In this document: in pieces, positions 5,369 to 63,000 of the stretch | Numbering within the stretch: position 1 is the stretch's first letter | How the letters are laid out: each line of letters opens with the position of its first letter | Assembly: GCA_948144175.1 (NCBI GenBank) | Contig: CANXME010000236.1 | Span: 58,100-122,099, forward strand | DNA length: 64,000 nucleotides | From: Closterium sp. NIES-65 | Taxonomy: Eukaryota; Streptophyta; Zygnematophyceae; Desmidiales; Closteriaceae | Direction: 5' to 3' | Made by a program: the position numbers and the translations under genes | The notes under the pieces: model-generated | Database searches by the model: none | What the model saw: the letters and a program-made list of their open reading frames with translations, nothing else | What the model was told of the DNA's origin: nothing

Positions 5369-8300
5369 TCAAATGCCCAATTCTGGCTTGGGAACATCAG
5401 CCGAACAGGTGACTGAGTTTAACAATCCAGCCGGTGTGCCTTCCACATTATTGCCTTCCACGTCAGCACCTTCTGCATCAGCGCCTTCCACGTCAGCACC
5501 TTCTGCATCAGTGCCTTCCACGTCATCACCTTCCGCATCAGCGCCTTCCACATCAGCACCTTCCACGTCAGCACCTTCTGCATCAGCAACTTCCACATCA
5601 GCGCCCTCCACAGCACCTGCATCAGCGATCGCTTCAGCCACAGCAACCCGATCTGCCATGTCAGCTGCAGGCAGATCGGGTTGCTTTGGCACAGCTGAAC
5701 TGTGCGAGCTAACATCACCATGATCTCCCCTGTTGGCCGTGCCTTGGTTCGCCATGGCTTCTTGGACCGTGCTGTTTCCGAGAGCGTTGAGATAATCCTG
5801 GGTCTTTTCATTGCTCGCATCATCCTGCTTGCTGCATTCCCCATCCCTCTCATATTTCTCCCGTTGCTCTGTACCCTTCCCTCCCTCACTCTCCCCCACC
5901 TCACTCGCTTGCTCCTCACTCCCTCGCTCCTCCCTCCCTTGCGCATCAGTCTCTTCTTCGTCACTCTCTCCCTCCAGTCCAATGGTACCAACACTGCTCA
6001 TGTCTAGTGTGCTCTCTTCCCCATCGCTCTCATTCTCACTCTCGTTCTCTATCGAACTCTCACTCCCACTCTCACTCCCACTCGCACTCCCACTCCCACT
6101 CCCACTCTCATCCCCACTCCCACTCCCACTTCCACTATCTACATCACTGACCCCACTCTCTCCACCACCGCCTTCCCCACTCCCACTTTCCTCCGCTTCA
6201 CTCCCCAAGCTATCACAAGAATCAAAACCATCCGCCCCTTCATCCTCCTCATCAATCCCACTCCACTCGTCCTCTTCCCTCCCATCCTTCTTCTCACTCT
6301 GTCCCTCCTCCACCTCATCATTTTGCTCGTCCCTCCCAACCTCCTTCTCACTCCGTCCTTCCCCGATCGCTTGAGGCACCTCAGAGACAGGCTCGTCCTT
6401 TTGCTCTTCCAGCCCACCACCCTCCTCTGCTTCACCCTCGTCTATCCCACTCCACTCATCCTCCTCCATCTTATCCTCCTGCTGACTCTGTTCCTCATCG
6501 TTCCTCTGCGGCACCTCCGAGACAGGCTCTTCGTTTTTCTCTTCCGGTTGATTCTCCTCCTCTGCATCCTCCTCATCAATCCCACTCCACTCGTCCTCTT
6601 CCCTCCCATCCTTCTTCTCACTCCCTCCCTCCTCCACCTTTTGAGGCCCCTCTTCGTTTTGCTCGTCCCTCCCAACCTCCTTCTCACTCCGTCCTTCCTC
6701 GATCAGTCGAGGCACCTCATAAACAGACTCTCCCTTTTGCTCCTTCAGCTGATACTCTTCCTCTGCATCCTCCTTATCAACCCCACTCCACTCGTCCTCT
6801 TCCCTCCCCTCCTTCTCAGTCATTCCCTCCTCGTTCCGTTGCGGCACCTCAGAGACAGGCTCATCGTGTTCTTCCGACAGATTCTCCTCCTCTCCATCCT
6901 CCTCATCAACCCCACTCCACTCGTCCTCCTCCCTCCCCTCCGTTCCCATCACCTCCTCCTGCCCTTCCCCTTCATCCGCCCTGCTCCCAAGTTGATCCTC
7001 TACCGAGGGCTTTCGAGGCACCCCTTGAGGCGCCATTTGAGGCGCCTCAGAAGTCCTCTCAGAAGTCGCTTCCTCCTTCCCTTCCCCTTCATCAACACTA
7101 CTCTCAGATTGGTCATCCACCAAGGGCCCTTGAGGCGCCATTTGAGACAATCTGAGAGCATCAAAGATCTCCTCCTCCTGCCCTTTCCCCTCAACCATGA
7201 TGCTCTCAGCCTCAGATCGCTCCTCCTTGACCAAGAGAGGAGGACCAATCATGCTGCCCGGCTCTTGAGGCGCCTCACAAATCATATCTACCAGGAAAGG
7301 AGAAGCTATCATGCTGCCAGGTGTCTGAAGAATTCCTGGTGGAGAGATTTCAGCCCCATTCTCCTTCTCACTTCGTTCCTCCTCGTTCTTCCGATACACC
7401 TCGGAAACTGCCTCCCCATTTTGCCCTCTCGACCCACCCTCCGTGCACTCCTCGCTCTCCTGAGGCGCCTCAAATGAATTTTGAGAATTCTCAAAAAACA
7501 TACCCGACCCACCCTCCGTGTTCTCTATCCACTCCTCTCTTTCCTGAGGCGCCTCTAATGAAGACCCTTCCTTCTGCTCCTCCGTCTGATCCCTCTTCTT
7601 GCTCCACCCGTCCTCCTTCCCCTCATTGCCTGGTTTTCTCCCACGCTCATCACTTGCATCATCGTTAGCATCATCAACATCACTCCACAAGTCCTCATCA
7701 CCATCGTCATCGCAACCATCAGCATCAGCATCGCCATTGCCTGGTTCCCTCCCATCCTCGTCACCAGCATCACCGCTATCAACATCAACATCACTCCACA
7801 ATTCCTCAGCATCATCATCACCATCACCATCACCATCACCATCACCAGCAGCAACATCCTCTCTCTCCGCCACTACTTTCTCAACTTCCTCCTCTTTCCT
7901 CCATTCCTCCTCTTTACTCCCTTCCTCCTCTTTCCTCCATTCTTCCTCTTTACTCCCTTCCTCCTCTTTCCTCCATTCCTCCTCTTTACTCCCTTCCTCC
8001 TCATTCCTCCCTCTCTCCTTATTCCTCCCTTTCTCCTCTCTCATCCCATCCTCCTCTTTCCTCCCTTCCTCCTCTTTCCTACCTTCCTCCTCTCTCCACC
8101 CTTCCTCCTCATTCTCGTTCCTCCCAGCCTCCTCCATTGTAGACCCAGCAGCATCAGCATCCTCGTTACTAACATCACCACTATCGTCATCAGCACTCCA
8201 CGACGATTCATCATCCTCCTCCTCCTCCTCCTCCTCCTCCTCCTCCTCCTCCTCCTCCTCCTCCTCCTCCTCCTCCTCCTCCTCCTCCTCCTCCTCCTCC

Positions 8301-11300
8301 TCCTCCTCCTTCTCTTCCTCTTCCTCTCTCTCCTCCTCCATATCACTCCACCCTTCCTCTCCCTCACTAGAGCTCTCACTTTCCCTTGCTTCCCCTTTCA
8401 TCGAACCTCGCTTTACCAACACATTTTGCACACCTCGTCCCTCTAAACCTGACTCACACTCTTCCTTCATCACAACTGCTGATGACCTCCCTAGCTTCTC
8501 AACTCCTCCTTTCTCAACTCCTCCTTTCTCCTCAACTCCTCCTTTCTCCTCAACTCCTCCTTTCTCCTCAACTCCTCCTTTCTCCTCAACTCCTCCTTTC
8601 TCCTCAACTCCTCCTTTCTCCTCAACTCCTCCTTTCTCCTCAACTCCTCCTTTCTCCTCAACTCCTCCTTTCTCCTCAAATCCTCCTTTCCTATCCTTTC
8701 CTTCTCCATTCCTAGGTCCCACTGAACCTAGCTTCTCCACTCCTCCTTTCTCCTCCATTCCTCCCTTCTTCTCCTCAACTCCTCTTTTCTCCTCCATTCC
8801 TCCCTTCTTCTCCTCAACTCCTCTTTTCCTATCCTTCCCTTCTCCAGCCGCAACACCCAATCCGTTTCTCTTTTCTTGCTCCTCACTCCCCTCCTCCCCT
8901 GCAACAACCCCTCCTTGCTCCCGCTCCTCCCTCCTCCTCCTCTCCTCACTAGCAGCTTCCATCTTCCTTCTCACCTCCTCCACCCTCCTCCTCCTCTCCT
9001 CCTCTTTCTCCCTCTCCTTCGCCTCCCTTTCCCTCCTCTCCCTCTTTCTCTCTCTCAACGCTCTCTCTGCCTCTTCCCCTTCCTCTTCCAACTCCTGAGT
9101 CCACTCCAATACCACCCTCCTCTCTTCCTCTCCTCTCCTCTGCCCCGCCCCTGTCAACGTCTCCACCTTTTCAACCAACCATTCCGAAGCACCTGTTTCC
9201 GTCTCAACAAAACTCCCCACAGTCACCATCCCACGATGAGGTCTGGCTTTTGGGGAAACCAGCGGAGATCTACCTGGAAAAGCACCTGGCAAAACAGGAC
9301 TGGTGACACCGGGTGCACCAGCATGAGACCCAGCGCCAACACCTGTAGCAGCTGCAAGGGTGGTAGCAGCAGCCCTTGCCACAGCTGCTACAACCCCAGA
9401 CGGACCAAGCAATGGGGAGTGTGACGGACCCGCTCTGTCACCTGCTGTGCCTGGAGCACTAGCAGCAGCAGCAGCAGCAGCAGCAGCAGAGTCATCAACA
9501 GCAGCAACGGCGGCACCTGTCGCGGTTGCTTCTGCAACCGCAGGTAAAGCAGCTGGTGTAGCAGCGGTAGCAGCAGCAGTTGTAGCAGCGGCTGTAACAG
9601 CAGCTGTAGGAGTGGTTGTAGCAGCAGGGGTGGCACCGGCTGTAGCGGTGGCTGTAGCAGCAGGCACAGCAGCGGAAGAAGAGCCAAAGGTAAGGTGCGT
9701 GAGCGAATCAAATATCTGGATGCTGGCCCGCCGAACGTGACTGACCGACGCTGACTTGGGCAGGAAACTTGCAAAGAGACCCGGAGCAGCAGCGGATGAA
9801 GAGTTTTCCTGCTGCTGCTGGTGTTGCTGCTGCTGCTGCGGTCTCCTCTCATGCTTCACACGCACATTCCCTTCACCACTGTCCTCGACCTCCTCCTTAC
9901 CCTCCTCTCCTTCCACCTCCCCTTCCTCAAGAATCCAAACATCTGCCCCACCTCCCTTCTCATCCGCTCCTCCTCGTTTATCACCCAAAACTCGTCTATC
10001 CCGATAGGACCCCTCCCACGGATTCTCGCTTCCCATCTGCCTTCCTGCCTCTTGATCCTGCACCCTGCTGCTGCCCCACGGTTGCTCTATGCTTTCCTCT
10101 CTATCACCCATCCCCACTCCACCCAACCCCTCTCCTTTCTCTCCCATCCCCCAGCCCTGCCAGCCCCCTACAGAACGAACCCTGCCGCCCGCTGCAGCTG
10201 TAGCGGGCCTACGTGGCAGTGCTACAGTACCCGCTCCTGCTGCTACAGACTCACGACCTGCTGCGCCACCTGTTGCCGCTGCTACAGCCCCTGCTGCAGC
10301 ACTTGTAGCCCAGAAAGACACAATGTCTCGAACAGTGCCCTGTGCTGCTGCAGCAGCTTCGGATAGCAACGACTCCATCACACCGTCTCTACCACTCCCC
10401 TTGTGCGGCTCCTGAGAACTAGACGCGCCGTCCCGAGCACTCCCTTTCCAAACCTGCCGGTTACTTGCCAAACCACTAGCCTCGGTCCCACCCCGAGCGG
10501 TTCGGTCCGGTACACCAGAGTCTAGAGGTAAAAGAGCTGAATCACCCTGGTCACCCCTTCCTTGTATCCGTTCTCTTCCTGTGCCTGTGCTCCGCTCCTC
10601 CTGCCTACCAGCCCTCCCTCCTCCACTCTCTCCTCCCCTTCCTCCTCCGCGTCCCCCCGCACCCCACACTCCCCCTCTCTGACCCCCAGGTCTGTACAGC
10701 AGAGCACTCACCCTCCCACTCCCACTGCTATCCCCGCCCCCAACCGCTCTTCTAGCCGGCTCAAAAGTTGACCTGGACTTAGGCAGAGCGGTCATGGGGC
10801 GAGCAGGCATGCTTTGAGGCGAAGCGATCGCTCTATGAGTCCGCTCAGGAGGCACCTCAGACGCAGTCGCTCTTCTAGCCGCCTCTTGAGGCGCCTCAAA
10901 AGCGATCGCTCTTCTAATCAGCTCTTGAGACGTCTCAAGAATCGCGTCAGTCGCAATTGCTCTTCGAGCTGGCTCAAAAGTCGACCTGGATTTAGGCAGA
11001 GCGGTCACGGGGCGAGCAGGCAAGGGGTGGCCATCTAGACCATCCAGCCTCGTACCTGGCTGGGAATACTCGTCCTCCAGGCTTTGATTCCTCCTCCCTC
11101 TATCCAGCTGGACAGGGGTTTTCCTATCCAGACTGGTAAACCCATCTCCCTCACGACCCCCCCACGCAAGCGGCTGTGGCTGGTATTCGCCCAAGCTTTG
11201 GCCCCTCTGGCCCCTCCCTGTATCCAGCCTCGCAGCTGCTGGATCGTGACTCCCCCACGGGTGAGCATCCAGCCTGGTGGCTGCTCGCTGGTGGTATTCG

Positions 11301-14300
11301 TCTGGACTTTGGCCCCTCCCTGTATCCAGCCTCGCAGCTGGTGGATCATGGTGACCCCCCCATGGGTGAGCTTGAAGATCTGACCTGGTATCTGCTGGCT
11401 GCTGGTATTCGTCTGGGCTTTGGCTCCTTTGGCTCCTCTGTCCCCTCCCTGCATCCAGCCTCGCAGCTGCTGGATCGTGACTTCTCCAGGGGTGAGCAGC
11501 ATCTAGCCTGGTGGCTGCCGGCTGGTGGTATTCGTCTGGGCTTTGGCTCCTCCCTGCATCCAGCCTGGTGGCTGCTGGCTGGTGTCGACTCCCACTTCCA
11601 CCACTAGCCCCGCCCCCAATCGCTCTTCTACCCAGCTCAAAAGCCAACCTGCCACTCCCATCCCTTGCTGCTGTGTGCTGGAACCGATCTCTCGGCTGAG
11701 CAGTCATAGGGCGGGCAGGCAACGGGTGAGCGTCCAGTCTTGAAGCTGGCTGGGAATAGTCTTCCTCAACGCTTCGATTTCTCCCTCTATCCAGCCGGGC
11801 AGCAGAGTCATGACTCCCTATGGGGCGAGCAGGCAACAGGTGAGTGTCCAGTCTTGAAGCTGGCTGGGAATAATCCTCCTCAAGGCTTTGGTTTCTGCCT
11901 CTATCCAGCCTGGTAGATGCCTCACGGCTCCCCCAGACATCACGTCTCCTTTGCTCGCCCAGCAAAGGATCGTCTTGTATCCTGCTCTGTTCCCTCTCTT
12001 GCTGCCTGGACATAGGACGAAAGAAAGGCTGCTGCTCCCCTCCTTCTTGCCTGATTCCAGGCGCCAGCACAGCAGGGGACTCTGCCATCAGGTCAAAGGC
12101 GTTAGCGTTCTGTTGAGAGTTCCCAAAAGTGGCATTGGAGTAGCTAGAAGGAGTGAAGGAGCGAGTGAGAGAGTCCGCATGGTGGTGTACCACAACACCT
12201 CCTGTTCTTTGAGGCGCCTCAAAAGTCTGCCCCAGGGGTTTGGGTTTAGGGGAAGCAGTTGTGAGGGAGCGAGTGAGAGAGTCTACATGGTGGTGTACCA
12301 CCACATCGCCCGCTACCACCTCCCTTACAAACAAAACCTCCTCACTCTCCTCCTCTTCCCCTCTCTCCTCCCCCTGCTCCTCCCCTCTACCTGCCCCCTC
12401 CTCCTCCTCTGCCCTCCCGTCCTGCTCCGCCTTCTCCCCTTCCCTCAGCCTCAAAGGTCGTGCAACAGGAGTGTTACCGCCGCCACTAGTGGTAACCGCA
12501 TGTGCGACAGGCGTGTTACCGCCAGTCGAAGCATCCGCAGTTACAGGGGTGGTTACCGGCGACACTTGACTGTTAGCAAACTGATTTGGACTCCCCAAGG
12601 CCTGGGCGATGGGAGTGTTACCAGCAGTGGAAGCAGCAGGTGTGTTACCAGTTGTAGAGTAAGCAGCAGCAGTACCAGCAGCACCAGGAGTAGCAGCAGG
12701 AGTAGCAGCAGCAGAAGCAGCAGAGGTGGCTGCAGCAGCTAGCCTTGCTGAAGCCATCCCGAGGAGACCAGACACATTGAACCCACTGACAAATGACGCG
12801 GTAACTGCATGCGCAACAGGAGTGTTACCAGTAGTCGACATCTCAGCCATAGACGGTGTCCTGTAGATGGTCAGAGCGCTCGACCGCTCTCCACCCATTC
12901 CTCCTGATACACCACCCATCTGAACCGCTCCCCCTTGAGACATCGACATTCCTCCTGACATATCCCCTACAGCCCGAGCCACAGGCGTGTTACCATCCGT
13001 GGACATTCCCGAGGCTACGGAGGAGGTTCGGGCGATGGTAACCGCGTGCGCAACCGGCGTGTTACCAGCAGTGGAGGCCTCAGTAGTAGCCACCGAAGCT
13101 GACCTGTAGATACTTAGTGAGGCATTGTGTACCCCGACTGAGTAGACAACAGAAGGAGCTTCGGCAGCAGACACTGATCTACTCATGCTAGGAGTACTGG
13201 CAACAGAGGGACCAGCAACAGAGGGAGAGCGAGCTATAGCCAAAGCAGCCGACTGGAGACTCTGACCAATGCTCCACATGCCGTTGCCGCTGCTCAGCCC
13301 CCATCCTCCTCCGCCACTTTTTTCTCCTCCTCTCCGCCCCTCACCCCCACTCCCATCCTTGACAAGCCTTCTGGGAGCAGGAGGGACCAGGCCAGCCGCA
13401 TTTCTTCTCATGGCTGCCCGAGCCTTTGCTTCAACTGCCCGGACCAAAAGCTCGAGATCCTCTTTCACTGCAGCAGCAGCCGTTGCTGCTGCGTTCCCTT
13501 CCTTAGCCACCCCTCGGAATTTTCTCCTCACCCTGCCAACGCCATTCACATGCAACACGTTATGCACCTCCCTAAACACTGCTGATACCACCTGCTCCAC
13601 TTCCCACTCCGCTTTCTCCCTCTCGGCAGCCGAGACGGCTGTAGCGGCAGCTGTAGCGGCGGCAGAGGCTGACACTAACTCGCTTTCCCGCTTCGCCACT
13701 GCCAGCTGTAGCATCTGCAGCAACACGTGGAGAAAATCACCCTGGTGCTTAGCTAAAAGCTGCTGCTTATTGTAAATAGAGTCACCCCAATTGTAGTCTT
13801 CATCTGCCAACCCTACATCTACTAACTCCTCCTCCTCCTCTTCTTTTCCTCTCCCAGATTCTTCCAAGTCTTCTCTGTCATTCGCTCCACCTGTTGTCGT
13901 CTCTGTTCCTGAAAACTCCCCCCCTGATGGTCCCCCGAAGGTGAGCAGCAGCCCCACATCTGAACCAGTTCTGTTGAAACCACCTGAGTAAGACCCTGCT
14001 CTGTTGAAAGCACCTGAGTGCGAGTCCGCTCTGTTGAAACCCCCTGTGTAGGAAACCGCTCTGTTGAAACCCCCTGAAGGCATACCTGGGGCTTCCCTAG
14101 GAGCGGTTGTTATCTGACTGGCATAGGAAAAGGGCTGCCCTGAATAGGAGACTGCTCTAGCTGCGTTGGGAGAGGAAGCCTCATCAAGCGCTGAAAACGA
14201 GGTGGTGAGGGGCGGCGGTCCTTTAGCGGTGGGAGAGGGGGGTTCTTTGCTGGTGGGTGTGGGAGAGGAGGGCCCTTCAGAAAAGGAAATATCACGAGCA

Positions 14301-17300
14301 GAGTGGGAGGAGAGGAGGGTGGTGGTGGTAGAGGAAGAGGACAGGTTCGGATCAGGATAGGCTCGGCCTGAGTACGTGGAGGCTCGGCGGAAGGCCTTGT
14401 GGAGAGAAGAGCCTATACTGCCGGGATGGGGGCTTGCAGGAGCCAAGAATGAGAAGGCGTTATGGGTGAAGTCAGGAGCTGTGTCTGGGCTGGTGGTATG
14501 AGTCGTCTCTAGGCTGCTGTAATCCGTGTGTGGGGTGATGTGAGCCACATTAACAGGTGCACACGGTGAGGCAACTACAACTGTCGCTGCTCCTGCTGCT
14601 GCCGATGCCACTACTGCTGCTCCTGCTCCTGCTGCCGCTGATGCTACTACTGCTGCTGAAACATCTTCTCTTCCCTCACTCGCATCCTCTTTTCCGCTCT
14701 CCCAGTCCTTCCCATCAACTTCACCTAAACCGTTTTCCATAGCAACAGCTGCGACGCTCCTTCCTCCTCCACCTTCACCCCCTTGCTCCTGCCCATCCCA
14801 ATGGGCGAATTCCCCACTCGTCCTTTCCGCCTCCCCTTCCATTCCCCTCTTGACCTCCTCCTCCTCCGCCTCCTCCTCATGCTTATCATTATTATCACCA
14901 CTGCATTCAGCCACACTAGCCAGACGAGACTTTACGCGACCACCAGGAGTGCCGTTTTCACCTGATGAAGCACCTGAAACAACAGAAACACCTGAACCGT
15001 CTCCATCTGCGCCGCCTGCACCCCCAGCGCCAGGTGCTGCTGCGGTCACCACCTCAGCATCCCCATCCAACTGCATCCCCCGTAAATGAACCAGGGGTGA
15101 GTGCAGAGGCGAGAAGTTGCTCATTCTCCTCCGCAATTCCGGCAGCTTAGCACTGAAAAACTCGTCCTCACGAGGAGAAGAGGACTTGTAAGGACCCTCA
15201 CCAGTCATTCTCCTCCTCAATTCCGGCAACTTAGTGCTACAAAACTCGTCTTCTGCAGAAGAGGCAGACTTACGAGGCGAGTTTTGAGGGCCCTCACCAG
15301 TCATTCTCCTCCTCAATTCCGGCAATTTGGTGCTGAAAAACTCGCCTTCCCCAGGGGAAGAGGGCAGGCGCAGGGCCGTCTCCTTTTGAGGGCCCTCACC
15401 AGTCATTCTCCTCCTCAATTCCGGCAGTTTCGTGCTGAAAAACTCGTCTTCCCCTGGGGAGGAGGGTTGCCCCAGCGCAGCCTTAGCGTCTCTCACATAG
15501 GTGACTAAATCGGATGTGGCTCTAGGGAACGTGCGAGGGGGAGGGTGAATGTGCAGCAGAGGCCGGGAACTGCAGGTGTGACTTGGCTCAGGGTCGTGTG
15601 CATCAGTGAGACTTGGATCCTCACTAAATAGTCTACTCTCCTCCGTGAGTGACCTAGGCCAGTCCATCCGGCAAGACTGCCCTATCCTTCTTTCCTCCCT
15701 CTTCTCTGCCCCCTCCGTTTCCCTTTCCTGCCTCTGGCCTTCCCCACGCCTCTCCCCTTCCCCACGCCTCACCTCAAGCTCTTGTTCATCGTCTCCTTCA
15801 CTCCAGATCTCATCCCAGTCACCGTCCTCATTCTTCCCCTCAACTCCCTCCCCTTCCCTTCTGTAATTCTCTTCCTTCTCTAAGCTCAGCCGCTCCACTA
15901 CACTTGCTGCTCTGCTGGTGCGTGTGCCTGTGCTTGCTGTGGCAAGCGAAGAACCTGGTTCTTCTTCTTCTCCGGCTGCTGCACCCTCCTCCTCCCCACG
16001 CTCCTCTATTCCAAATAGCACCCTTCTCATCCCTCCCATCTCCCCCTCCTCAGCTCCCCCCTCTGCTCCCTCCGCCACCTCGCCACCACACAAATACGGC
16101 CAGCTTTCCTCCCCACCAGAACCCTCCAATCGCGGCCCGCCAAGCGGCGACACAAACACCCCTCCCACGCCCCCTCCCCTGCCATTCCTCCCCACCGCTC
16201 CCGACCCACTCAAACTCCCCACTAGCGGCGACATCGGCCTTCCATTAGCATCAACCACCACCCCCCCTTCCGCCACAGCCCCTCCAAACGCCTCCCCTAG
16301 CTGCCTCTCTAGCTGAGACAGCATTTTCACTGCCTCCTGTCGCCGCTCCCACTCCTTCTCAGCTAAAAGGCTTGCTTCAGCTGAGAGCTCCTGCTCCCGT
16401 TGCAACTCCAGGTACAAGTCCTCAAGCTCCCTCTCTAGGTCTCCTCTCACGGCGTGCAGTCGCTCGATCTCTGCTTCTGCTTCTGCGATGCTCCTGGTGG
16501 TGTTCGTGGCGGTGCTGGTACTGGCGTTCCTGGTGCTACAGCCGCAGCTACAGCTGCTGCAACACGTGCAGCCACAGGTGCTGTTGGTAGGCTGGCTGCT
16601 ACTCTGGTCTCCCCCAGCTTCGAGACAAGCCTTATCCAAATCAGCAACAGGGGCCTGTGACTTGCAATCGAGTTGAATGCGTAGAGAGTCCAACTCCCTC
16701 TCCAGATCTTCCCGCAGGTTGCGCAGAAACTCAAGCTCTGCCTCGCGGTCCATCTCGGGAAATGTCTTTCCAGGTGACAATTGTGCCTTGGGAAGCGACA
16801 CTTCCACCTTCTGAGGCTCTTTGAAGCACTCCACTTCGGCATCCATGTTTCCCTCCACACTCTCCCTCTCTCCCACAACCCCCTTCCTGCTGTTCCCATG
16901 CTCCTCCTTCCTTTGTTCACTCCCTCTACCTCCCGCATTGTTATCACCGAATGAGTCACGCGCGGCATTCGCATTCAAACCCAGAGTGTCTCCTGCTGCT
17001 GACCTCTCTGCAACTTTCAGGCGACCCTCAAGGCCCTTCACTCTTTCCTCTGCGTCCTCTCGTCCCTTCTCCGCCTCCTTCCATTCCCGCTCTGCTTCCT
17101 CCTTTCGCCTCTCTGCCTCCTCCCTTTGTCTTTCCGCCTCCTCCCTCTGTTTCTCTGCAGCATCCCTCTGTGCTTCTGCCTCTTTCAACCTCTGTTCCAC
17201 CTCCTCCCTGCTCCCCCCCTCCTCCCTACTTCCACTCTCCCTCAATCCCTCTTCTCCGCACTTATCCACGCGTGCGTGTGCGTCCGTCTCCCTCAATGCC

Positions 17301-18864
17301 TCTTTCAAGCATGCCAGCTCAGCACTCGTGTCTGCCAGCCTGGCACTTGTATCTGCCAGCGTGGCATTCACAGCTTCCAGCTCACGCCTCAAGCCCTCCG
17401 CCTCTCCCTCTGCTCTCACAGCGTGCAGTTCAAGGTCTTTTAGTCGTGCACTCGCCTCCCTTTCATCGTCACGCCCAGCTACCCTTCCATCCGCCTCATC
17501 ACTCCTGTCATCTGCTACACTGCTTCCATCCTCCCTTTCAACTCTTCTTCTATCAACTGACCCGCTTCCCTCCTCTGCTGCTGCATCAGCAAGCCCTCTC
17601 AGCACAGCACTCACCCCCTCGATCCTCTCACATTTGGCCTCAGCTTCCTCCAATCGCTGCTTGACACGTGCCAATTCCTCCTCCGCCTCTTTCCGCCTCT
17701 TCTTCTCCTCCTTCCGTTTCCCCTCCTCCTCCTTCCGCTTCTCCTTCTCCTCTTTCCTTTTCTGCTTCTCCTCCTTCCTCCCCTCCTCTTCCTCCTTCAA
17801 CCTCCTCTCACACTCCTCCAACCTCCCAAATAATTCCCCTCTCTCCCTCTCTCTTTCCTTCTCCCTCTCCTCCAAACGCCCCTCCAGAGCAACCTTTTCC
17901 CTCTCCACGCACTCATACTTAACCAGCAAATCGGTTTTCGCCTTTTCTGCCACTGCGAGCTGCTCCCCTGCTTGTTGAAGTTCACCTTTCAACCGCTCTA
18001 CATCCCCCCGCATCTCCTCCAATGCCTCTTTCTGTGGAAGGTAGGCGGAGGGAGCAAGTGCGCGGGGTAGGTCAGGTTGGAATGATAAGGGAGGGAAAAA
18101 GCGGGGTGGAAGGGTGGAAGGCAATGGGGATGGGGGGAGGGGGTGGATGGAGAGATGGTTGTAACTGGAGCGAGAAACAGGACAGGAGTTGTAACCGGGG
18201 TGCGAGGGAGATGAAACTGGGGCGCAAAAGGAATGCGGAATGCGGAATGAACACGAACTGAATGGAGAATGCGAGAGGACACGTGGACGGACCCGATGGC
18301 TCTTCTTCCCATCTTTGTGCTTCTTGCCCGTCGATTTGCCTTCCTCCTGCCCGTCCTGCTCACAAGGCATCACAAGGCATCACAAGGCATCAGAGTGGCG
18401 CGAGCTCAACAAAAGGAGAACAAAAAGCGCCTCAAGCGGAACGCCGCGGAAAGCTGGCGCAAGAAGGAAGGAGTAGCGGCGGAGCTAAAAAGAGTTTTGA
18501 GGCGTCTGAAATGTTGAGACGTCTCAAAACTCTTTCGAGACGTCTCAGAACGCCGCAGAAAGCTGGCGCAAGAAGACAGGAGTAGCGGCGGAGCTAAGAA
18601 GTACGCGCACGGGAGCCAGAACGGGACCCCCCGAAGGGAAGAGTACCTTCTGAGCCATTGCCGGGAACTTGAGACGTGAGCATTTTTTAGACTCCTCACT
18701 AACCGCATTTCGAACTGAAAAAACTTCCCCAGGTCCCAGTGTTCCCGGCAACGGCTCAGTGTACCTCTGAGGCTCTAGCATCTCCCTCAGATTAATCAGC
18801 TCACTGAGTCTAGCGTGGGAGTCTTCCGCATAAAAAGCATGCTTTCACTTACCTGTGCCTCCAT
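5369..18864 (-). CDS. Giant coiled-coil, repeat-rich acidic protein (~4,220 aa), unknown function
   Basis: The main exon is a single 12.66-kb open frame, 18031-5369, ending in TGA. A short first exon is proposed: ATG at 18864, donor CAG|GTAAGT at 18853/18852, encoding MEAQ, joined to an acceptor at 18033 so that the helix continues as MEAQKEALEEM. In order from the N-terminus: charged Glu/Lys/Arg coiled coils to about residue 590; four RMTGEGP repeats; GFNRA repeats; a helical segment near residues 1380-1560; STGNTPVAHAV repeats; RLDAG/HPW repeats; a Glu/Arg coil; GGVEEK repeats; a poly-Glu run of about 33; EDEWSGIDEEDAEEE repeats; and a VEGAD tail. No catalytic domain, signal peptide or membrane segment is seen. 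The coil near residues 520-590 faintly recalls plant myosin-binding (GTD-binding) coils, a weak inference. It could be a scaffold protein. The absence of stops over 12.6 kb argues for selection. Confidence 0.7.
5434..5620 (-). repeat. 15-bp coding repeat (VEGAD/AEGAD) at the C-terminus of the giant protein
   Basis: About a dozen five-residue units of the type (V/A)EG(A/D/T/N)(D/N) are encoded head to tail, with point differences between units. The unit length is a multiple of three, so gain or loss of copies keeps the frame. Confidence 0.85.
6230..6960 (-). repeat. Acidic coding repeats with EDEWSGIDEEDAEEE and PVSEVPQ motifs
   Basis: Six or so imperfect units each combine an EDEWSG acidic block with a SEVPQ/YEVPR block and a SEKE block. 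The (S/Y)EVP(Q/R) pieces resemble the F-E-A-P-Q peptide that the TTTTGAG palindromes encode further upstream in this frame, and may be mutated remnants of them. Confidence 0.75.
7036..7050. repeat. Coding palindrome of the TTTTGAG family, GCGC centre
   Basis: TTTGAGGCGCCTCAG lies in the giant open frame, where the minus strand reads SEAPQ. Related partial copies are at 7024-7034, 7263-7276 and 7542-7554. Confidence 0.7.
7462..7496. repeat. Two adjacent coding palindromes (GCGC and AATT centres)
   Basis: TGAGGCGCCTCA at 7461-7472 and TTTTGAGAATTCTCAAAA at 7479-7496 sit side by side in the giant open frame. The minus strand reads FFENSQNSFEAPQE. They lie between two copies of a ~50-bp coding segment (7430-7478 and 7501-7560). 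Confidence 0.85.
7876..8110 (-). repeat. Coding repeat KEEEWRKEEEGS
   Basis: Glu/Lys/Arg-rich units of about 36 bp are repeated in the giant open frame, next to the poly-Glu tract. They keep the frame and a predicted charged-helix character. Confidence 0.7.
8212..8310 (-). repeat. (TCC)n microsatellite encoding about 33 Glu residues
   Basis: An almost pure trinucleotide run on the plus strand is read as GAG/GGA-type codons on the minus strand, giving poly-Glu in the giant protein. Tracts like this are prone to length change. Confidence 0.9.
8497..8693 (-). repeat. 18-bp coding minisatellite encoding GGVEEK
   Basis: Ten to eleven near-identical 18-bp units (TCCTCAACTCCTCCTTTC on the plus strand) encode GGVEEK. 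Low divergence indicates recent expansion or homogenisation. Confidence 0.9.
10885..10939. repeat. Two coding palindromes (GCGC and ACGT centres) between repeated RAIA segments
   Basis: CTTGAGGCGCCTCAAAAG at 10885-10902 and the perfect palindrome CTTGAGACGTCTCAAG at 10924-10939 sit in the giant open frame. The minus strand reads AFEAPQ and ILETSQ. Each lies beside a copy of a GCGATCGCTCTTCT-like segment that encodes RRAIA. Confidence 0.8.
11030..11900 (-). repeat. Coding repeats RLDxGR / QSPDEYHQPAATRLD / HPWGSHDP
   Basis: Imperfect units of roughly 90-120 bp, in frame in the giant gene, share TRLDAHPW, DPAAARLD and GRGQ blocks. They look like stepwise local duplications. Confidence 0.75.
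12207..12224. repeat. Coding palindrome, GCGC centre, between duplicated segments
   Basis: CTTTGAGGCGCCTCAAAA lies in the giant open frame; the minus strand reads TFEAPQ. The flanks at 12161-12195 and 12262-12303 both contain GAGCGAGTGAGAGAGTC followed by TGGTGGTGTACCAC. Confidence 0.85.
12461..13075 (-). repeat. Dispersed coding repeat STxGNTPVAHAVT
   Basis: About eight copies of a Gly-Asn-Thr-Pro-(V/I)-A core occur in the giant protein, some followed by IARTSSVAS or IYRTPSMA. Spacing is irregular, so this is a motif family rather than a simple tandem array. Confidence 0.8.
13961..14084 (-). repeat. Coding repeat GGFNRAxSYSG
   Basis: Four units of about 30 bp encode GFNRA/T with a Ser/Tyr-rich spacer in the giant protein. 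Confidence 0.8.
15122..15460 (-). repeat. Coding repeat ELRRRMTGEGP (4 units)
   Basis: Units of about 86-100 bp encode EDEFFSTKLPELRRRMTGEGP-like blocks with variable linkers. The conserved block suggests a short binding motif repeated in the giant protein. Confidence 0.8.
18365..18548. repeat. First-intron duplication with three TTTTGAG-family palindromes at its junction
   Basis: The segment GAACGCCGCGGAAAGCTGGC and its continuation occurs at 18439-18488 and again at 18548-18598. Between them lie TTTTGAGGCGTCTGAAA (18495-18511, a hybrid of GCGC and ACGT halves), GTTGAGACGTCTCAAAA (18513-18529) and CGAGACGTCTCAG (18536-18548). A CACAAGGCAT decamer is repeated three times just before, near 18362-18391. 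Confidence 0.85.
18651..18758. repeat. Fold-back: 18-nt inverted repeat with 72-nt loop
   Basis: TGAGCCATTGCCGGGAAC at 18651-18668 pairs with 18741-18758 with one mismatch. GTACCT-like ends lie on both outer sides. It is within the proposed first intron of the giant gene. It may be a MITE remnant or an RNA hairpin. Confidence 0.65.
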
Positions 18865-44000: not shown

Positions 44001-45234
44001 TGTCTGCCCTGTCTTCACTGTGTGCTGTGCAACAACGCCACACAAGCTGCTTCCTCCAAGTGCTGCCAGCAGGATGTGCCAGAGGGCCCAGAACCTCATC
44101 CCATTCCCCCCATCCATAACCCTCCTCTTTTCCGTTCCCCGCCCCCTGCCTCTCTCCCCTCCCACAAGCAGATTCAAGAGCTTACAGGCGAGCTCTCGAG
44201 CCTCAACAACGCCACACAAGCTGCTTCAGCCAAGCAGTGCCAGCAAATGCGCCAGAATTCCCAGGCATGGCCCCCACCAGTGTACGAGCCCCACATTTCT
44301 CCCTCTACCCTTGATCCCCTTCTTCCTCTCTCCCCTCCCACAAGCAGATTCAAGAGCTTACAGGCGAGCTCTCCAACCTTAACAACGCCACACAGGCTGC
44401 TTCCTCCAAGCGCTGCCAGCAGATGCGCCAGAATTCCCAGGCACGGCCCCCACCAGTGTACGAGCCCCACATTTCTCCCTCTACCCTTGGTCCCCTTCTG
44501 CCTCTCTCCCCTCCCACAAGCAGATTCAAGAGCTCACAGGCGAGCTCTCCAACCTTAACAACGCCACACAGGCTGCTTCCTCCAAGCGCTGCCAGCAGAT
44601 GTGTCAGAGGGCCCAGACACAGACGAAGCTGTACAAGAACTACTGCAACCTGTGGGCCTTTGTGGAGAACAGGTGAGAGATCCAGAAGTAACGGTGTTGA
44701 TGTCTGGCACCTCTTCTCCAAGGAAGAGCCAGCAGATGTGCCAGAGGGCCCAGTCACAGACGAAGCACTACAAGAACTACTGCAACCTGTGGGCCTTCGT
44801 GGAGAACACGTGAGAGGCATGTTCACATCCCCTGTTGGATGTGTTGTGCTGGTTTAGGATTTCCAGAAACATCTGCGACAAAGCGGTGCCAGAAGATGTG
44901 CCAGGGGGCCCAGGCTCAGCAGAAGCAGTACAAGAAAGAACTACTGCAACCTGTGGGCCTTTGTTGAGAAGAGGTGCAAAATGACATTCTTGCACCTTGC
45001 TATTGCATGTGTCGTTACAAGTTTTCACCCTGCCGGGATTTTTTAGGCGCCTTAAAAAAACCACTCTTTAATGTGCCTTGCTTTTGTATGTGCAGTTACA
45101 AGGTTCCTTCCTGCCGAGGCAGCTGTCTACTTTTCAATGACGAGTCGGAGTGCGGGGTGCGCAATGTAACGCGGGACGCGAAGAGGAACGTTGTCTACCA
45201 ATTCATGGAGCCCAGTTTCCTTAACTGCGACTAG
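38082..45234 (+). CDS. Secreted right-handed beta-helix protein with a cysteine-rich EGF-like module
   Basis: Predicted extracellular protein. Exons: 38082-38163, 38290-38429, 38683-38729, 38941-39012, 39481-39672, 40312-40556, 41470-41758, 42286-42505, 44524-44672, 45096-45234. All phases match and total 1,575 nt, 524 aa. An N-terminal signal peptide (FLLVAVLLVVGSGDAEA) is followed by repeated beta-strand turns with FSxNxA and GGAI motifs (residues ~100-330), the pattern of pectin-lyase-like and Pmp-type beta-helices. A cysteine-rich region follows, with CTGCSNDCNSRGTC and CKMGYTLESKCVACSPGFF, then a helical stretch and a Cys-rich tail. It may bind or modify wall or matrix polysaccharide; no catalytic residues are clear. 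The third intron starts with GC (CAG|GCAAGC). Many exons have defective copies beside them. Confidence 0.82.
39047..39186. repeat. Duplication with two palindromes at its junction
   Basis: CTTACTGTTACG-GAGGTGATTT and continuation occurs at 39047-39082 and 39148-39186. Between them are TTTTGAGGCGCCTCAAAA (39088-39105) and TTTTGAGACGCCTCAAAA (39125-39142). The second joins an ACGT-type left half to a GCGC-type right half. Intron of the beta-helix gene. Confidence 0.9.
39738..39806 (+). pseudogene. Copy of the beta-helix exon 5 end
   Basis: It repeats CGCGCCGAGTCACCTTCCAG through AVFK|GTGAGT, with TGA in place of the GGC-GGG codons. Confidence 0.8.
39873..40240 (+). pseudogene. Three copies of the start of beta-helix exon 6
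   Basis: Copies at about 39875, 40029 and 40170 have acceptors and repeat (K/R)DSSPTAGSPLQFTTCVFLNN with changes, then run into C/T-rich intron. The intact exon is 40312-40556. Confidence 0.8.
40583..40698. repeat. Palindrome TTTTGAGGCTCCTCAAAG between two exon-6 copies
   Basis: The palindrome (40583-40600, one centre mismatch) separates the end of intact exon 6 with its intron start (40495-40580) from a second copy of the same segment (40611-40698; FSEGSELYLLQSTFSQNTA|GTAATT). Confidence 0.9.
40771..40965. repeat. Duplicated CACACAGGTTC segment with three family palindromes
   Basis: TTTTGAGAATTCTCAT (40817-40832), CTTGAGTCGACTCTAAAG (40877-40894) and TTTTGAGTCAACTCAAAA (40904-40921) lie within a region where TGTGTGCAGAACACTGTTG and its ACACACAGGTTC tail occur two to three times. 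Confidence 0.8.
41055..41469 (+). pseudogene. Three copies of the start of beta-helix exon 7 with poly-C introns
   Basis: Units begin at about 41055, 41193 and 41332 (period about 138 bp) and repeat acceptor, ARGGGAILTTSPILTSIGTRFSANAV, then a C-run of 9-13 bases. The intact exon begins at 41470 with GGGACGCGC where the copies have GGCACTAGA. Confidence 0.85.
41805..42145 (+). pseudogene. Two downstream copies of the beta-helix exon 7 end
   Basis: Copies at about 41805-41952 and 41995-42144 repeat RRNRAPVYPVSNDMNAGTSD and the KEVQSC|GT end, with small changes; the second has a short duplication at AAACCCTAAACCCTGAAGG. Confidence 0.85.
42595..43080 (+). pseudogene. Three copies of the EGF-like exon 8 end
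   Basis: Copies at about 42600-42696, 42799-42899 and 42980-43080 repeat CKMGYTLESKCVACSPGFFSGQKGRC and TVCGTVDK|GTG. No acceptor precedes them. The first two repeat the intron as well (unit about 197 bp). Confidence 0.85.
43082..43385 (+). repeat. 21-bp minisatellite derived from the end of the EGF-like exon
   Basis: About fourteen units of GTGGACAAGGTGCGTGGTAGT. The core GTGGACAAG|GTGCGTGG is the exon end and donor of the preceding copies, so a splice junction has become a minisatellite. The frame reads DKVRGSV. Confidence 0.9.
43430..43926 (+). pseudogene. Three further copies of the EGF-like exon 8 end
   Basis: Copies at about 43435-43541, 43632-43741 and 43818-43926 repeat CKMGYTMESKCVAC and the GTVDK end. 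The second and third carry single-base gains that shift the frame (CCAGGGGTTCTTC; GGGTTCTTTCTCC). Confidence 0.8.
44028..44430 (+). pseudogene. Copies of beta-helix exon 9 start
   Basis: Copies near 44030-44095, 44169-44268 and 44348-44445 repeat IQELTGELSSLNNATQAASSKRCQQM with acceptors and then break off. The intact exon is 44524-44672. Confidence 0.8.
44715..44975 (+). pseudogene. Two copies of beta-helix exon 9 end
   Basis: Copies at about 44715-44812 and 44871-44974 repeat CCAGCAGATGTGCCAG through YKNYCNLWAFVEN and the GTGAGA/GTGCAA donor; the second contains a GAAA insertion. Confidence 0.8.
45039..45060. repeat. Palindrome TTTTTTAGGCGCCTTAAAAA at a duplication junction
   Basis: A diverged GCGC-centre member of the family separates two copies of the exon-10 start: about 44992-45036 (TGCACCTTGCTATTGCATGTG...CTGCCG) and 45071-45117. 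Confidence 0.85.
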
Positions 45235-48862: not shown

Positions 48863-51800
48863 TGTCTGTACTCGTGGTGGTCACTGAGCAACCGGAACTA
48901 GCCTGTCTGCCTCCTGTACTCCACCTGCTGGACCCTCTCAGCCAGATTATTCTCCACGGGTGATGTGAACGTTTGAGCCGTCTCAAACTCTGTTTTGGAG
49001 TCTCTATCCTGCTGCTCCTTCCCCTCCTCCCTCCCTCCCCACAACCACATGCGCACTGTTTCTCTCTTCCAAGACGCCTGCCTGTGTGATCTTGCTTGCC
49101 TCTCTTCCTGTGTGTATATATATGGTTACACATACATACACATTTTGATCCTTCCCCTCCTCCCTCCTTCCCCACAACTACCAGGCGGACAGTGTCTCTC
49201 GTCCGAGACGCTTGCCTATGTGTGCTGGCGGTGGCGCGGGGATCAGAAGCGGGCATGCGGGCGTGCAGGGAGCAAGGCATGCTCGGGGTGGTCGCTCGCT
49301 CTCTTGCTGCCATCACAGGTATCGACACACCACTTGTGACTGGTCCCATATTGAAATCACTTTTGAGAATTCCCAAAAGTGATTTCAATATAGCCGGGGT
49401 GGTCGCTCGCTCTCTTGCTGCCACCACAGGTATCGACACAGTGACTGGTGCCATTGCTGCCATGACAGGTATCGTGATGTGGCACATGCATGGGTGGGTG
49501 GTAAAGCATGTGAGGTCATGAATGAACGGCTCAGAAGGAGGCATGAGGGCATGAGGGTAGGAGGGCAGGGCATGAGGGAGAAGAGCCTCTTGTGACATGG
49601 TCACATGGTCACATCACATGGTCACATGGTCACATGGTCACATCACATGGTCACATGGTCACATGGTCACATCACATGGTCACATGGTCACATGGTCACA
49701 TCACATGGTCACATGGTCACGTGGTCACATGGTCACGTGGTCACTTGGTCACATGGTCACGTGGTCACACCACATGGTCACATGGTCACGTGGTCACATC
49801 ACATGGTCACGTGGTCACATGGTCACATGGGCTGGTGTGCAGGGAGAAGAGCATCTTGTGTTGGCCGCACGCTCTGTTAGCTTGTGTGGTGTTGTCACCA
49901 TGGTACTGTGTTCACCCTTTTCCCCTTCACACATGTGTCATTCATACACCCCTTGTTGTATAAGATTTTTCAATCAGACTCCCTCTTCCCCTCCTCCCCC
50001 CCCTTGCCCCCCTTTTCCCCCGCCCCCCGCCTTTCCCCACCCTCCTGTTGTTAACGCTTCTCTCAACTCTCCCCTTTTCTTCCCTCCTACTCACAGACCC
50101 TTCCTGTTCAGCTCTTAAGGTCTCTTTTGAGGCGCCTCAAAGAGGTCGTTTTTGAGGCGCCTCAAAGAGGTCGTTTTTGAGGCGCCTCAAAGAGGTCGTT
50201 TCTGAGGCGCCTCAGAAACGTCCTGTTGTTAACGCTTCTCTCAACTCTCCCCTTTTCTTCCCTCCTACTCACAGACCCTTCCTGCTCAGCTCTTGCAGCG
50301 GACCTGCTAAGCGTTCTGGTCAATGCTGCATCTCCCCTCGATATCTTCCAACACGGAGACTCGCTTGCTGCTGCTGTGAGTTCCCCCCTGTCCCCCATCC
50401 CAGTTCCCGTTTCCCCCTCCCCCCCCGTCACCATTTCTTGTCTCAAATTCACCAAACTGTTCCTATCATGCTCCTTATGCAAGCAAGTGCTAAGCTTTCG
50501 TGTTGCCTCTGCCCCTTCTCTCAATAGTTCATTCGTTACCATCTGCTTCTCAGGTGCCAGCCCTAGCAAGGCAGCTCGCATCAAGCGAGTTTTGAGACGT
50601 TTCAAAGTTTCATTACCATCTCCTTCTCAGGTGCCAGCCCTTGCAAGGCAGCTAGCCTCAAGTGAAGACAGCAGCAGCAAGCACAAGATAGTGACCCTGC
50701 TGCTCATTCTTGTCTTGATTACCACCACTCTGTTCTGTTACCCTCTGGTCACCATACCAGGTGCCAGCCCTAGCAAGGCAGCTAGCATCAAGCGAAGACA
50801 GCAGCAGCAAGCACAAGATAGTCACCCTGCTGCTCGCTCTGCTCTCGACAACTCAACAGCAACAGAACCACCGCCCTGCATTGTCTAGCGCTACTCAAAG
50901 CACCGCTGAGCCGGAGCAGTTAGAGGGTCTGGTTCAGCAGGGCGTGAAGAGGCTTGAGCCTGTTGTGGCTGGTCGAGTGTGGGCAGCAGACCTTCGGGGT
51001 GGCATTCAGTGCATTCTCTCTTCCACCACTGGTTAGTACTGCTTCCCTGGCCTCCTTTCCTGTTCTCTGGTGAGGTTCCTGCTCTCAGGGTACTGCCTCA
51101 ATGCAAGGTAGCAGAGCAGCCAGATGGTTTGGTGTGCTGCAGAGCGCGAAGAGCCTCGAGTCGAGCCTGTTGTGGCTGGTCGGGTGCGGGCGGCAGATCT
51201 TCGGGGGGGCATTCAGATTATCCTACTGTCTTCCACAGGTTAGTAGTGCTGGCCTATTCCTCCTTTCTTCCTTGCGGCTCCGAAGGTAGTGAGGCTCCTC
51301 AAGGTATCTTCTCAGGTATTCTCAGTGCGAGTTCAGTTGCACTGCCCTCGTTTTCCTTTGCTGTGGTTTTGGCTCATTGGGTTGATGCCACCATGAAAGA
51401 CACCTGGCACCTGCCTTGCCCCCGCAGGCTCTGATCTGTCTGGAGGGCCTTGATTGATTCCCTGCTTGCTGTCTGGTTGTCGGCAGCCAAAAACACGCTC
51501 TGTTCTCCTTCTCTCCCCCTCTTCCTCCCCTCCCGCTTCCCTCCCCGACGCTTCCCCTCTGCCAGTATCGAATGAGAGTCAGCAAGACGCTTTTCACCTG
51601 GCTCATGTGGTTACCAGCATTCTTGGAGATTCTTGGCTCGCCGGGCCTCCTGAAAATACACCTGAGAATTTCCCTGGCTCTTCTCCTCCGGAAAATATTC
51701 TAGACTACAGGTGAGACTCTTCGAGTCTATATTACCTTGATCTCTCTTTGGCCAGGTGCTTAAATCTACAACCTGCAACCTTTGTTTGTTTGTTTGCTTT

Positions 51801-59835: not shown

Positions 59836-59844
59836 CGCGGAACA

Positions 59845-59965: not shown

Positions 59966-60068
59966 GAACACGGAGGTGATGAGCCACACCACAGTACCGT
60001 ACTCCTCCGCAGGACCATACTCTTCTGCTGGACCATACTCGCATGGTACCCTTAAGGCATTTTCTCTA

Positions 60069-63000
60069 TTATTGATCAAGGCAGCCCCCGGGGTTTTCGG
60101 GATTGGAACGGGGAACTGCATTGCTCACAGGAGCAGCCTCAACTCCCCTTCGGGTCAGAAGGCATCGAAACACGTGCAATCGTTTCTCTGCCTCTCCGCT
60201 TGCTAGTGCAGCATCGGCATATGCTTTGGTGCTCCATAATCGCTCTGATAGGAGGGAGGGAGAAAAACATCAACAAATTAAAAGTCAGATGAGTTGACCT
60301 TCTCCCCCCACATGCACATCTCGCCCCTTTCCAGTAGCTAACAGGGTGCAACGCTCTTCATACTGCAACATGATGGTACAGCAGCTTGCCCTTCATCTCA
60401 CCAGCAGCAGCAGCAGCTCGTGGCCAGATGGTCGGCATGAAGTCGGACGAGTCAACCTTCTCGCCCCACATGCACACCTCGCCCCCTTCCAGTAGATGCT
60501 CCGGTACAGAGCCATCCACTACAAGGTGTTGTGTTGGGTCTGTACTGTACACTCTATTCCAATCCTGCATAAAGGATGAAGGGAAACGGACAGGGAAAGG
60601 AAGAGGAGGTAGTGAGAGCCTCGTTATATGCTACTGGATGGATGGTTGTTGCTCAGTTTCCTATTATTGAGTGCCCCAATATATAGCACTTCTCGTGCCC
60701 ATATAATGTACCCGCTAAAGTAAATTCCTGATACACATTGCTGCAGCTAATTTAGAAGACTTCACATGTCCTGCTTCAAACAATGTCCTCTTTTTTAAGT
60801 GCTTCGCCATAAGCCACTCACCACGTCCATAGAGTCGGGGTACCATCCGCCATACACATTGCTGTAGATTATTCGGAACCCTTTAAGCATCATGCCCTCA
60901 ATGTTATCCTCGATAAAAAGCTTTTCGTTATAAGCCGCTCACCACATCCATAGAGTCGAGGTACCATCCGCCATACACATTGCTGTAAATAATTCGAAAG
61001 TTGTCACGAGCCATGCTTCCAAGGATGTCAACATTCAACCTGACACAAGCGAAACAATGATATATTCTGTCAGAGCCAGGGCAGAAGCAAGGGTAGCATG
61101 TCAGACGAAGAAAAGAGAAGAACGTGGCATTTTCTTGTATTCTAAACATGAGAATTTTTTTGCTATCGACCTAAGATAGATATTCTTTTAATCATACCAG
61201 TTTTGAAGGATGGTGGTCGTCTTGTTAAGGTCCTCTGAAAAACCCTGGTATGATTCCTCCCTGCACATGTGAAGGGAAACAAGCAGAAAGGTGACTTAGA
61301 AGTTCACTCCAGAATTTTTTGAAAGTTTTGAAGAATGGCGGTTGTCTTGATGAGGTCCTCTGAGAAACCCTGATAGGATTCCTCCCTGGATGCAGAGGGG
61401 GAAGAAGCAGAAAGGTGCCTCAGAAGTTCACTCAGGAGAAGGTTGAAAAGTTTTGAAGGAAGGCGGTCGTCTTGACTAGGTCCTCTGAAAAACCTGATAG
61501 GATTCCTCCCTGGATGCAGAGGGGGAAGGAGCAAAGAAATGAGGAGGAAAACAACAAGGTTAATCCCTGCCAAGGGGTAGGAGGGAGACGTGAACAACTC
61601 GGCTAGAGAATTAAGATGAGACCATAATACCGTGGGACATGTGAGCTTGGATGGGAGAAGTCCATGGGATGAGATGACACGAAACCATAATTACCACAGC
61701 ACACATACCATACAATAGTCTTCTCCCATCCCAACTCCAAGGCAATGGATCGAACTCGGTTGGAAGAAGTAGGACGGCATCCCTTGGCTGCATTCCCTGC
61801 TGGTTCATCCTGTGGTGTGGAGGGCAAGCGTGAGAGGTGGGGCAGAGAGAACAGACATCTTGAGACGTCTGAGACAAAATGATACATCATAGCAACTTCA
61901 CAACAAAATGACGATTCAACATTCTTCTGAGACGTCTCAAGGGACATACGTAGCTAGCTTGTGGTATCACTGACTGACACAATGATACATACATCATAGC
62001 AACTTCACAAGAAAATCATTGGGAAGCCTTGTGCTGCTTGAATTCGTAGCTTACCACTGGGAAATCCGTTCAGACTGTATCCAGCAGTCTGGTGGAAGGG
62101 AGGCAGGTACAGGATCAAGGGGGAAGCGGGGAGAGAATGGAAGAGGTAAGCGAGAATGCACTGCACACCACTGGAATATCAGTTCAGACTGTGTCCAGCA
62201 GTCTGGTGGAAGGGAGGCAATGGAAGAGAGAACAGGCGAGGCGAGTTTAGGGTTATACCTATTCGACTTTGAATATTTCATTGAGTTTGAATATTTCAAA
62301 TAAGTATAACCCTAACCCAACCCCCTTTCCCTTCTCTCACTCTCGTCCCATCCCACTGCCACTCATGTGCCCCGTCCTGTTCCCGCCCTTCTCTCATCCT
62401 GCCTCTCTCATTTCCCCTTCCCAATCTCTCTCTCCCTCCCCCTCCCTGTCACTTACCTTCCTTCACCTCATCCCCGCCTATGTGTATTCTGCTGCCTGCC
62501 AACACTGACCATAGATCTACCTCCCTTACCTCCTTCTCACACTCCCTCCCCTCCCCCGCTCCCTCCCCTCCCTGTCCCCTACCTTCCTTCACTTCATCCC
62601 CGCCTATGTGTATTCTGCTGCCTGTGAACACTGACCGCAGGTCTGCAGGGGAGGTTGATTGGGGTGTGTGGGCATGAAGAGGGAAAAGTGCAGAAGGGAA
62701 GGGGAATGGAAGAAAATTGGAGTGGAGTGAAGAGGAACGAAGGAGAATGAGGGCGAATGAGGAAAATGAACGGGAATGAAGGGGAACGAAGGGGCAATCA
62801 GCTGGGTAAAATTCCACTCCAATGTGTATCCTGCTGCTGGCAGCAAACACTGACAGGGAAAAAGAAGAGAAAGACGAGGAGGAATTGAAGCCCTATCTTT
62901 AACGTACCTGTGAGCACGCTTTTGATCAGCTCAAATGTGAAGTCGTTTGAAACATCAAGAGGCTCCTTGCATTGCATGTGGGGTTGGGGTGACTTTTGGG

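Follow-up and report, generated by a model that had tools for sequence, protein, structure and literature searches.

Miniature inverted-repeat transposable elements (MITEs) and foldback DNA transposons are non-autonomous, high-copy inverted-repeat elements that leave a target duplication of fixed length and usually enclose an internal region. Short interspersed nuclear elements (SINEs), which are mobilized by long interspersed nuclear elements (LINEs), leave target duplications of variable length that arise from staggered nicks, and target preference is loose in many LINEs. Here, we analyze a family of palindromes that recurs in a 64-kb stretch of contig C236 of Closterium sp. NIES-65 (the window). 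We write P for the palindrome, A for the duplicated flank segment, and X and Y for the outer flanks; L numbers denote sampled stretches. P differs from MITEs and DNA transposons in that its duplications vary broadly in length (16 to 128 bp) and in that it is an inverted repeat throughout, with no interior between terminal repeats. The variable length of its duplications is shared with SINE-like retroposons; yet P is unlike SINEs in being itself a palindrome and in having duplications of up to 128 bp. No recurrent 3' tail was noticed by eye in 47 inserts, and a few had extra bases on one side.

The nearest palindromic elements are looped and organellar. The short palindromic repeats of Volvox carteri organelles are likewise short and abundant, belong to a green alga, are thought to be selfish, and also have copies in nuclear DNA (PMC2670323). 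They have 3- to 5-nt loops and other sequences, however, and their copies in the nucleus are said to be inert transfers, whereas P is loop-less, lies among nuclear genes, and in most sampled copies is accompanied by a long flank duplication. The yeast mitochondrial GC cluster GC42 resembles P as a 42-nt palindromic mobile element without a gene of its own, but GC clusters carry AG/ACT repeats (PMC4478555). Bacterial REP palindromes are likewise dispersed and are presumed to be mobilized in trans by TnpA-REP (PMC8266576). Small tandem duplications formed at staggered breaks also copy flank of this size as a direct repeat, but the products reported there are plain A-A without a recurrent palindrome (PMC8355091); at P loci, the copies neither abut nor enclose random filler, the filler being one palindrome family. 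No description of such an element was found among the titles and opening lines of abstracts listed by searches of open-licence PMC papers, and the four papers that contain the palindrome strings were judged unrelated on the same basis. We regard P as a palindromic mobile repeat related in kind to the known ones. If P is mobile, its target duplication would be, to our knowledge, longer and more variable than that of any other palindromic element, and we know of no long flank duplication at REP palindromes.

The explanation that we prefer, at a probability of roughly 0.6, is that the copies of P, which are numerous, belong to a family of very small, non-autonomous mobile elements. On this view, they insert at staggered breaks, the target is duplicated as the break is filled in, and slippage then gives arrays. 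A new copy of P would be placed at a break whose strands are cut 16 to 128 bp apart. Both single-stranded ends would then be filled in, so that the segment between the cuts is copied and X-A-Y becomes X-A-P-A-Y, and A(PA)n arrays would arise later, as the A copies undergo slippage or unequal exchange.

Joint gain of palindrome and flank duplication

Host exons in this DNA are often tandemly duplicated without palindromes, and natural empty copies of P loci are therefore available. We reconstructed X-A-Y from 74 entries, which represent 73 loci because L018 and L019 share one, and matched it within the sampled DNA, excluding one-sided matches to X-A or A-Y alone. Six distinct loci were flagged, of which L005:1500 was set aside because its matches fall in a 28-bp minisatellite. 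The informative loci are the window array 28998-29450, L142:571-622, L143:5145-5204, L146:8013-8164, and L018:2365-2451, and in all five the empty paralogue reads X-A-Y: it has one A and lacks the palindrome. A search of the same DNA for paralogues with only the palindrome or only the duplication gave no convincing case: matches occurred at one locus alone, at 70 to 74% identity, and were discounted as chance in repetitive sequence. Since the empty paralogues lack both features, both were gained together; to judge from these comparisons, the palindrome and the second A arrive together at the readable loci. This is what a first-pass annotation of the window had proposed in suggesting that a palindrome is inserted while its flank is copied.

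The same annotation had alternatively considered a palindromic element that drives duplication. If the palindrome came first, its flank would duplicate later through hairpin-induced slippage or breakage. P does lie at the duplication junction, and imperfect palindromes are known as sites of template-switch mutation (PMC7202029, PMC8794818). But the five empty paralogues lack both parts, no convincing paralogue has P without the duplication, a single unrepeated P stands between two A copies at 18 of 35 loci, and unrelated palindromes of up to 46 bp (n = 7) have no duplication. We consider this order of events improbable. The more general idea that palindromes as such cause duplication was rejected on the same seven, none of which has a flank copy at a score of 15 (some are mutually related by eye). 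A different palindrome of 44 to 46 bp (CCTGTTCGGTTCGCCTCGAAC...) occurs in L143:1472-1515 and L176:665-710, on two contigs, with no flank duplication.

The flank copies themselves had been reported at 15 places in the window. On realignment, 14 of the 15 have direct copies (16 to 85 bp, 80 to 100% identical, scores of 16 to 71.5). The last, 61858-61941, has none as a single block (score of 7), but palindrome 61928 alone has them. The palindromes mark the junctions of the duplications at most places, as had been claimed, but only loosely at 10885-10939, where one copy lies 73 bp away, and at 12207 and 40877-40921, where one lies 32 to 35 bp away. The duplicated segment spans 16 to 128 bp (median, 44) rather than the 25 to 90 bp first given. 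That these are not fixed-length target-site duplications was right in the letter, but a long target-site duplication of variable length describes them best. The sites in the window are as follows (forward-strand coordinates).

7038..7049: palindrome TGAGGCGCCTCA, inside a large minus-strand open reading frame (ORF); flank copies 6954-7029 and 7071-7146
7266..7277: palindrome, GCGC center; copies 7230-7261 and 7290-7321
7461..7496: two palindromes (GCGC, AATT); flanking copies 7430-7445 and 7505-7520
10886..10940: palindromes GCGC and ACGT in a stretch of 39-bp period; wider copies 10746-10809 and 10959-11022
12208..12223: palindrome TTTGAGGCGCCTCAAA; copies 12153-12197 and 12261-12305
15285..15398: two palindromes, GGCC center, in a 102-bp-period array
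18498..18547: three palindromes, two with one mismatch; flanking copies 18443-18492 and 18552-18601
28667..28684: palindrome TTTTGAGAATTCTCAAAA; copies 28605-28643 and 28696-28738
28998..29450: array A(PA)7, period 59, in which copies of a 40-bp exon segment alternate with seven palindromes of the TCGA type (two of them degraded, each at one base)
29586..29687: empty paralogue of that array; one A, no palindrome, 84% identical
29793..29910: empty paralogue of that array; one A, no palindrome, 89% identical
35817..35893: three palindromes (TCGA, AATT, AATT); flanking copies 35788-35816 and 35895-35923
39088..39142: two palindromes, one with a non-palindromic center; flanking copies 39044-39082 and 39148-39186
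40583..40600: degraded palindrome (GCTC center); 85-bp copies 40496-40580 and 40611-40695
40820..40921: three palindromes (AATT, TCGA, TCAA); copies 40834-40873 and 40955-40994
45039..45058: diverged palindrome TTTTTAGGCGCCTTAAAA; copies 44995-45034 and 45076-45115, 80% identical
49348..49391: long-armed palindrome ATATTGAAATCACTTTTGAG-AATT-..., one mismatch; copies 49284-49349 and 49395-49454
50126..50220: four GCGC palindromes, 25-bp period; 74-bp copies 50043-50116 and 50221-50294, 99% identical
50590..50608: degraded palindrome (ACGT center); 57-bp copies 50532-50588 and 50609-50665
61861..61939: palindromes 61861 (degraded) and 61928; flank copies 61873-61909 and 61976-62016

Without regard to position, 34 of the window's 37 palindrome sites have a flank match scoring at least 15. 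In this repeat-rich DNA, however, so do 41% of 1,500 sites drawn at random from the window; the anchored control is therefore the useful one. It covered the window and eight 10-kb blocks, picked for palindrome content and not for duplications, with 57 loci, 35 of which have a single palindrome. Copies lay within 30 bp on both sides at 22 of these 35, compared with 701 of 4,979 random sites (14.1%). When the intervening palindrome also had to be unrepeated nearby, the counts were 18 of 35 and 152 of 4,979 (3.05%; nominal Fisher p = 4e-18). In a wider sample of 110 palindrome loci (one entered twice, as L018 and L019), 87 had a flank match scoring at least 15 and 75 had one within 30 bp on both sides; among the single-palindrome loci, the latter held for 47 of 73.

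Sequence and symmetry of the palindrome family

Intact copies of P are perfect loop-less palindromes of 20 to 64 bp. The family pattern is CTTTTGAG-NNNN-CTCAAAAG, with inner arms TTTTGAG...CTCAAAA, a self-complementary center of 4 bp, and outer arms that are specific to subfamilies. Across the assembly (874 Mb in 2,400 contigs), exact 20-mers of the form CTTTTGAGNNNNCTCAAAAG number 15,729, compared with 0 for the reversed control, and TGAGGCGCCTCA has 10,778 copies, compared with 36 for the reversed pattern. These counts are inflated by redundancy among contigs: one locus was found in C236, C2027, C2101, and C1969, in versions differing almost solely by short indels. A comparison of haplotypes was dropped, as the four contigs differ by indels of 1 to 3 bases and by at most one substitution per contig over 3.7 to 5.3 kb.

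The center of the palindrome is nearly constant. Genome-wide, the arms are spaced by 4 bp in 15,729 sites, by 0 to 3 bp in 32, and by 5 to 30 bp in 909, the last being mostly neighboring or nested palindromes among the matches listed. Among the matches listed, the center is TCGA, GCGC, AATT, or ACGT in 47 of 50 and a one-base variant in 3. The window has 27 exact sites of the form TGAG-palindromic 4-mer-CTCA, with additional sites at one mismatch, and GGCC centers also occur there. The lack of a loop and the small amount of slop at the center argue against looped snap-back synthesis, and equally against joining of ends head to head in a crude way. Between the flank copies, 47 inserts were read; they are 11 to 60 nt long, mostly with little beyond the palindrome itself, and by eye their arms are not copied from the local flank.

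The suggestion, given as an example in the first-pass annotation, that the palindromes stem from strand slippage during the repair of a fold-back end is not supported by these features. Local fold-back synthesis at a break could produce palindromes de novo with no element involved; the arms of P are inverted copies of each other, and inverted insertions, mostly of 5 to 34 bp, are reported at yeast breaks (PMC11724301). Against this, the same core recurs 15,729 times in one dispersed family with a near-constant 4-bp center, and the outer arms recur at unrelated loci and, by reading, do not copy the flank next to them. For the family as a whole, a core and outer arms held in common exclude fold-back synthesis, and we give such an origin next to no credence.

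A subfamily of about 50 to 62 bp has long arms. The palindrome at L147:8298 matches dispersed places at 85 to 98% identity over about 50 bp, and 20 long-armed loci were fetched by similarity to it alone (L202 and L203 are one locus; L209, L210, and L213 are related copies). All 20 have a flank match, with scores of at least 29.5, a level to be read against the roughly 28% of random window sites that reach 30 unanchored. Both flank copies lie within 46 bp of the center in 18 of the 20, and A measures 37 to 100 bp in the 19 that could be resolved. Locally copied inverted flanks were rejected as a source of the long arms: those at L147:8298 and at window position 49368 seemed specific to their loci, yet both have relatives elsewhere.

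The two arms of a copy tend to match each other. The arm types GATAGG, GAGAGG, and GCGAGG agree in both arms of most long-armed copies, and in 18 arm pairs (three redundant loci dropped) identity to a copy's own other arm was 0.86, compared with a mean of 0.78 and a maximum of 0.85 after shuffling; none of 2,000 shuffles reached the observed value. In a hand count of the 50 sites listed out of 129, arms were symmetric in 42 and asymmetric in 8, three of the latter (C6, C347, and C913) being the same locus. Symmetry could result from the copying of a half-palindrome. Alternatively, quasi-palindromes could be corrected by template switching, a process that can maintain perfect stems (PMC8794818). 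Left and right arm lengths correlate at r = 0.42 over 25 TCGA loci, which at most hints at independence. At some sites, a half-palindrome is fused beside a full one (for example, CTTTTGAGGC-GACTTTTGAGGCGCCTCAAAAG), as at C9:134017-134053, C56:109924-109955, and C109:60367-60398; these are possibly nested insertions or products of slippage.

Arrays, capture at breaks, and mobility

Arrays with periods of 24 to 102 are numerous, and tandem repeats abound in the genome, in keeping with minisatellite growth, in which a segment that happened to include P would undergo ordinary tandem duplication. Such growth predicts two P for two A, whereas the arrays show one more A than P; moreover, single-P loci exist. 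Clusters with at least three palindromes have A within 30 bp of both outer sides in 15 of 17 cases, as expected if A-P-A came first and then grew by slippage. Minisatellite growth as the origin of the pattern is thus very improbable in our judgment, even more so than duplication after the palindrome. The window's tandem arrays are for the most part free of palindromes.

Passive capture by ordinary break repair is a serious rival, although we hold it to be unlikely. End-joining of staggered breaks would by itself duplicate the flank, and an abundant palindromic fragment derived from DNA or RNA would be caught as filler, so that P itself would need no machinery for insertion. Staggered breaks alone do give rise to tandem duplications of this size (PMC8355091); P-free tandem duplications are common, with anchored copies at 14% of random sites; and no target motif or base preference was found at the duplication boundaries of 74 loci (at most 0.13 bits). 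The outer arm ends are ragged, with GTGAC extensions that are often one-sided among the matches listed, and some inserts have one-sided extra bases. But random filler should vary, whereas all P copies belong to a single family, with a near-invariant 4-bp center and 15,729 exact 20-mers. Many P-free duplications also have periods of 100 to 260 bp, exceeding most P duplications, and capture leaves the source pool of palindromic fragments unexplained.

Insertion of a mobile element and passive capture share the step that duplicates A, for which there is precedent: in the experiments summarized in PMC8355091, breaks with 43-nt 3' overhangs in mouse cells were filled in and joined as tandem duplications, and natural insertions in humans and plants are said there to hint at the same route. 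P might be put into the joint by an enzyme that some unseen mobile element encodes, by reverse transcription, or through the capture of P fragments, if these are abundant. The near-invariant center, the subfamilies, and the copy number favor a mobile element, which would move by copying.

Several observations weigh against the mobile-element reading. The staggered cut and its fill-in are deduced solely from their product. At 81 to 90% identity, the empty copies represent paralogues rather than alleles, and the sampled DNA consists of palindrome-bearing stretches, not whole chromosomes. Nor is duplication universal, as 23 of the 110 loci have none detectable, and some inserts (e.g., L179, L005, L169, and L173) have extra non-palindromic bases on one side. 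The perfection of the palindrome and the identity of the A copies do not correlate (Spearman -0.09, n = 47), in a sample biased because most loci were fetched by exact palindrome match. Finally, a small search (Pfam on 20 ORFs and RVT_1 in the genome) identified no enzyme or master copy. The 20 ORFs, 10 from the window and 10 from the blocks, included no transposase; the five family matches were a sulfotransferase, importin-11 repeats, GH20, a molybdopterin-binding domain, and CHRD. Reverse transcriptase domains (RVT_1) are abundant in the genome, with 150 matches scored of 15,064 candidates, LINE and LTR types being pooled; this speaks only weakly for a SINE-like route.

A stronger version of the mobile-element reading can be offered tentatively, at less than even odds: P may form a class of its own, new among eukaryotic mobile elements. 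Its members would be perfect palindromes from 20 bp upward without coding or internal sequence; each insertion would use the family's own staggered-cut pathway, leave a target duplication of 16 to 128 bp, and restore the symmetry of the copy, possibly by templating on a half-palindrome. P would then rank among the main sources of minisatellites, and of in-frame repeats in proteins, in its host. If P is mobile at all, it would be among the smallest eukaryotic transposable elements. The growth of A-P-A into A(PA)n shows specifically how minisatellites and in-frame repeats in proteins could arise, and it makes testable the question of how staggered breaks in plants and algae acquire recurrent filler.

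The reading frame provides an example. The ORF at 5369-18373 on the minus strand encodes 4,334 aa of low complexity without a Pfam match. Duplication offsets within it are multiples of 3 in 6 of 6 cases (hand-entered), compared with 1 of 9 outside it, or 2 of 12 when 40583, 45039, and 50590 (offsets of 115, 81, and 77) are counted. The in-frame offsets suggest that this ORF is translated and that frame selects which palindrome insertions persist.

Other features of the window and assembly

The genes of the window include a sulfotransferase, an importin-11-like gene, and a GH20 hexosaminidase (Pfam). Many segments of about 130 to 260 bp, several of which read as an exon plus an intron edge, are tandemly duplicated two to six times without palindromes, at 24702-25624, 27740-28343, 31972-32365, 41050-41546, 53275-53637, and 56089-56475; the importin-11-like exons around 29 to 31.6 kb are a further example. 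An 18-bp tandem repeat, ACCAAGGCGCGCGCGTGG, occupies 32418-33527 with 61.7 copies.

At least 120 stretches of viral contigs contain the palindrome, which we take as chance for 14 fixed bases. The single 3.9-kb plastid rbcL stretch that was looked at has no TTTTGAG palindrome. The rbcL of the assembly is of the green type, its best Protein Data Bank (PDB) matches being 9chz, 4hhh, and other chains; we take 4hhh to be from pea and the others to be from plants or green algae. Contigs C1848, C40, C75, and C2174 each have several rbcL copies in mixed orientation, as in concatemeric or chimeric plastid contigs.

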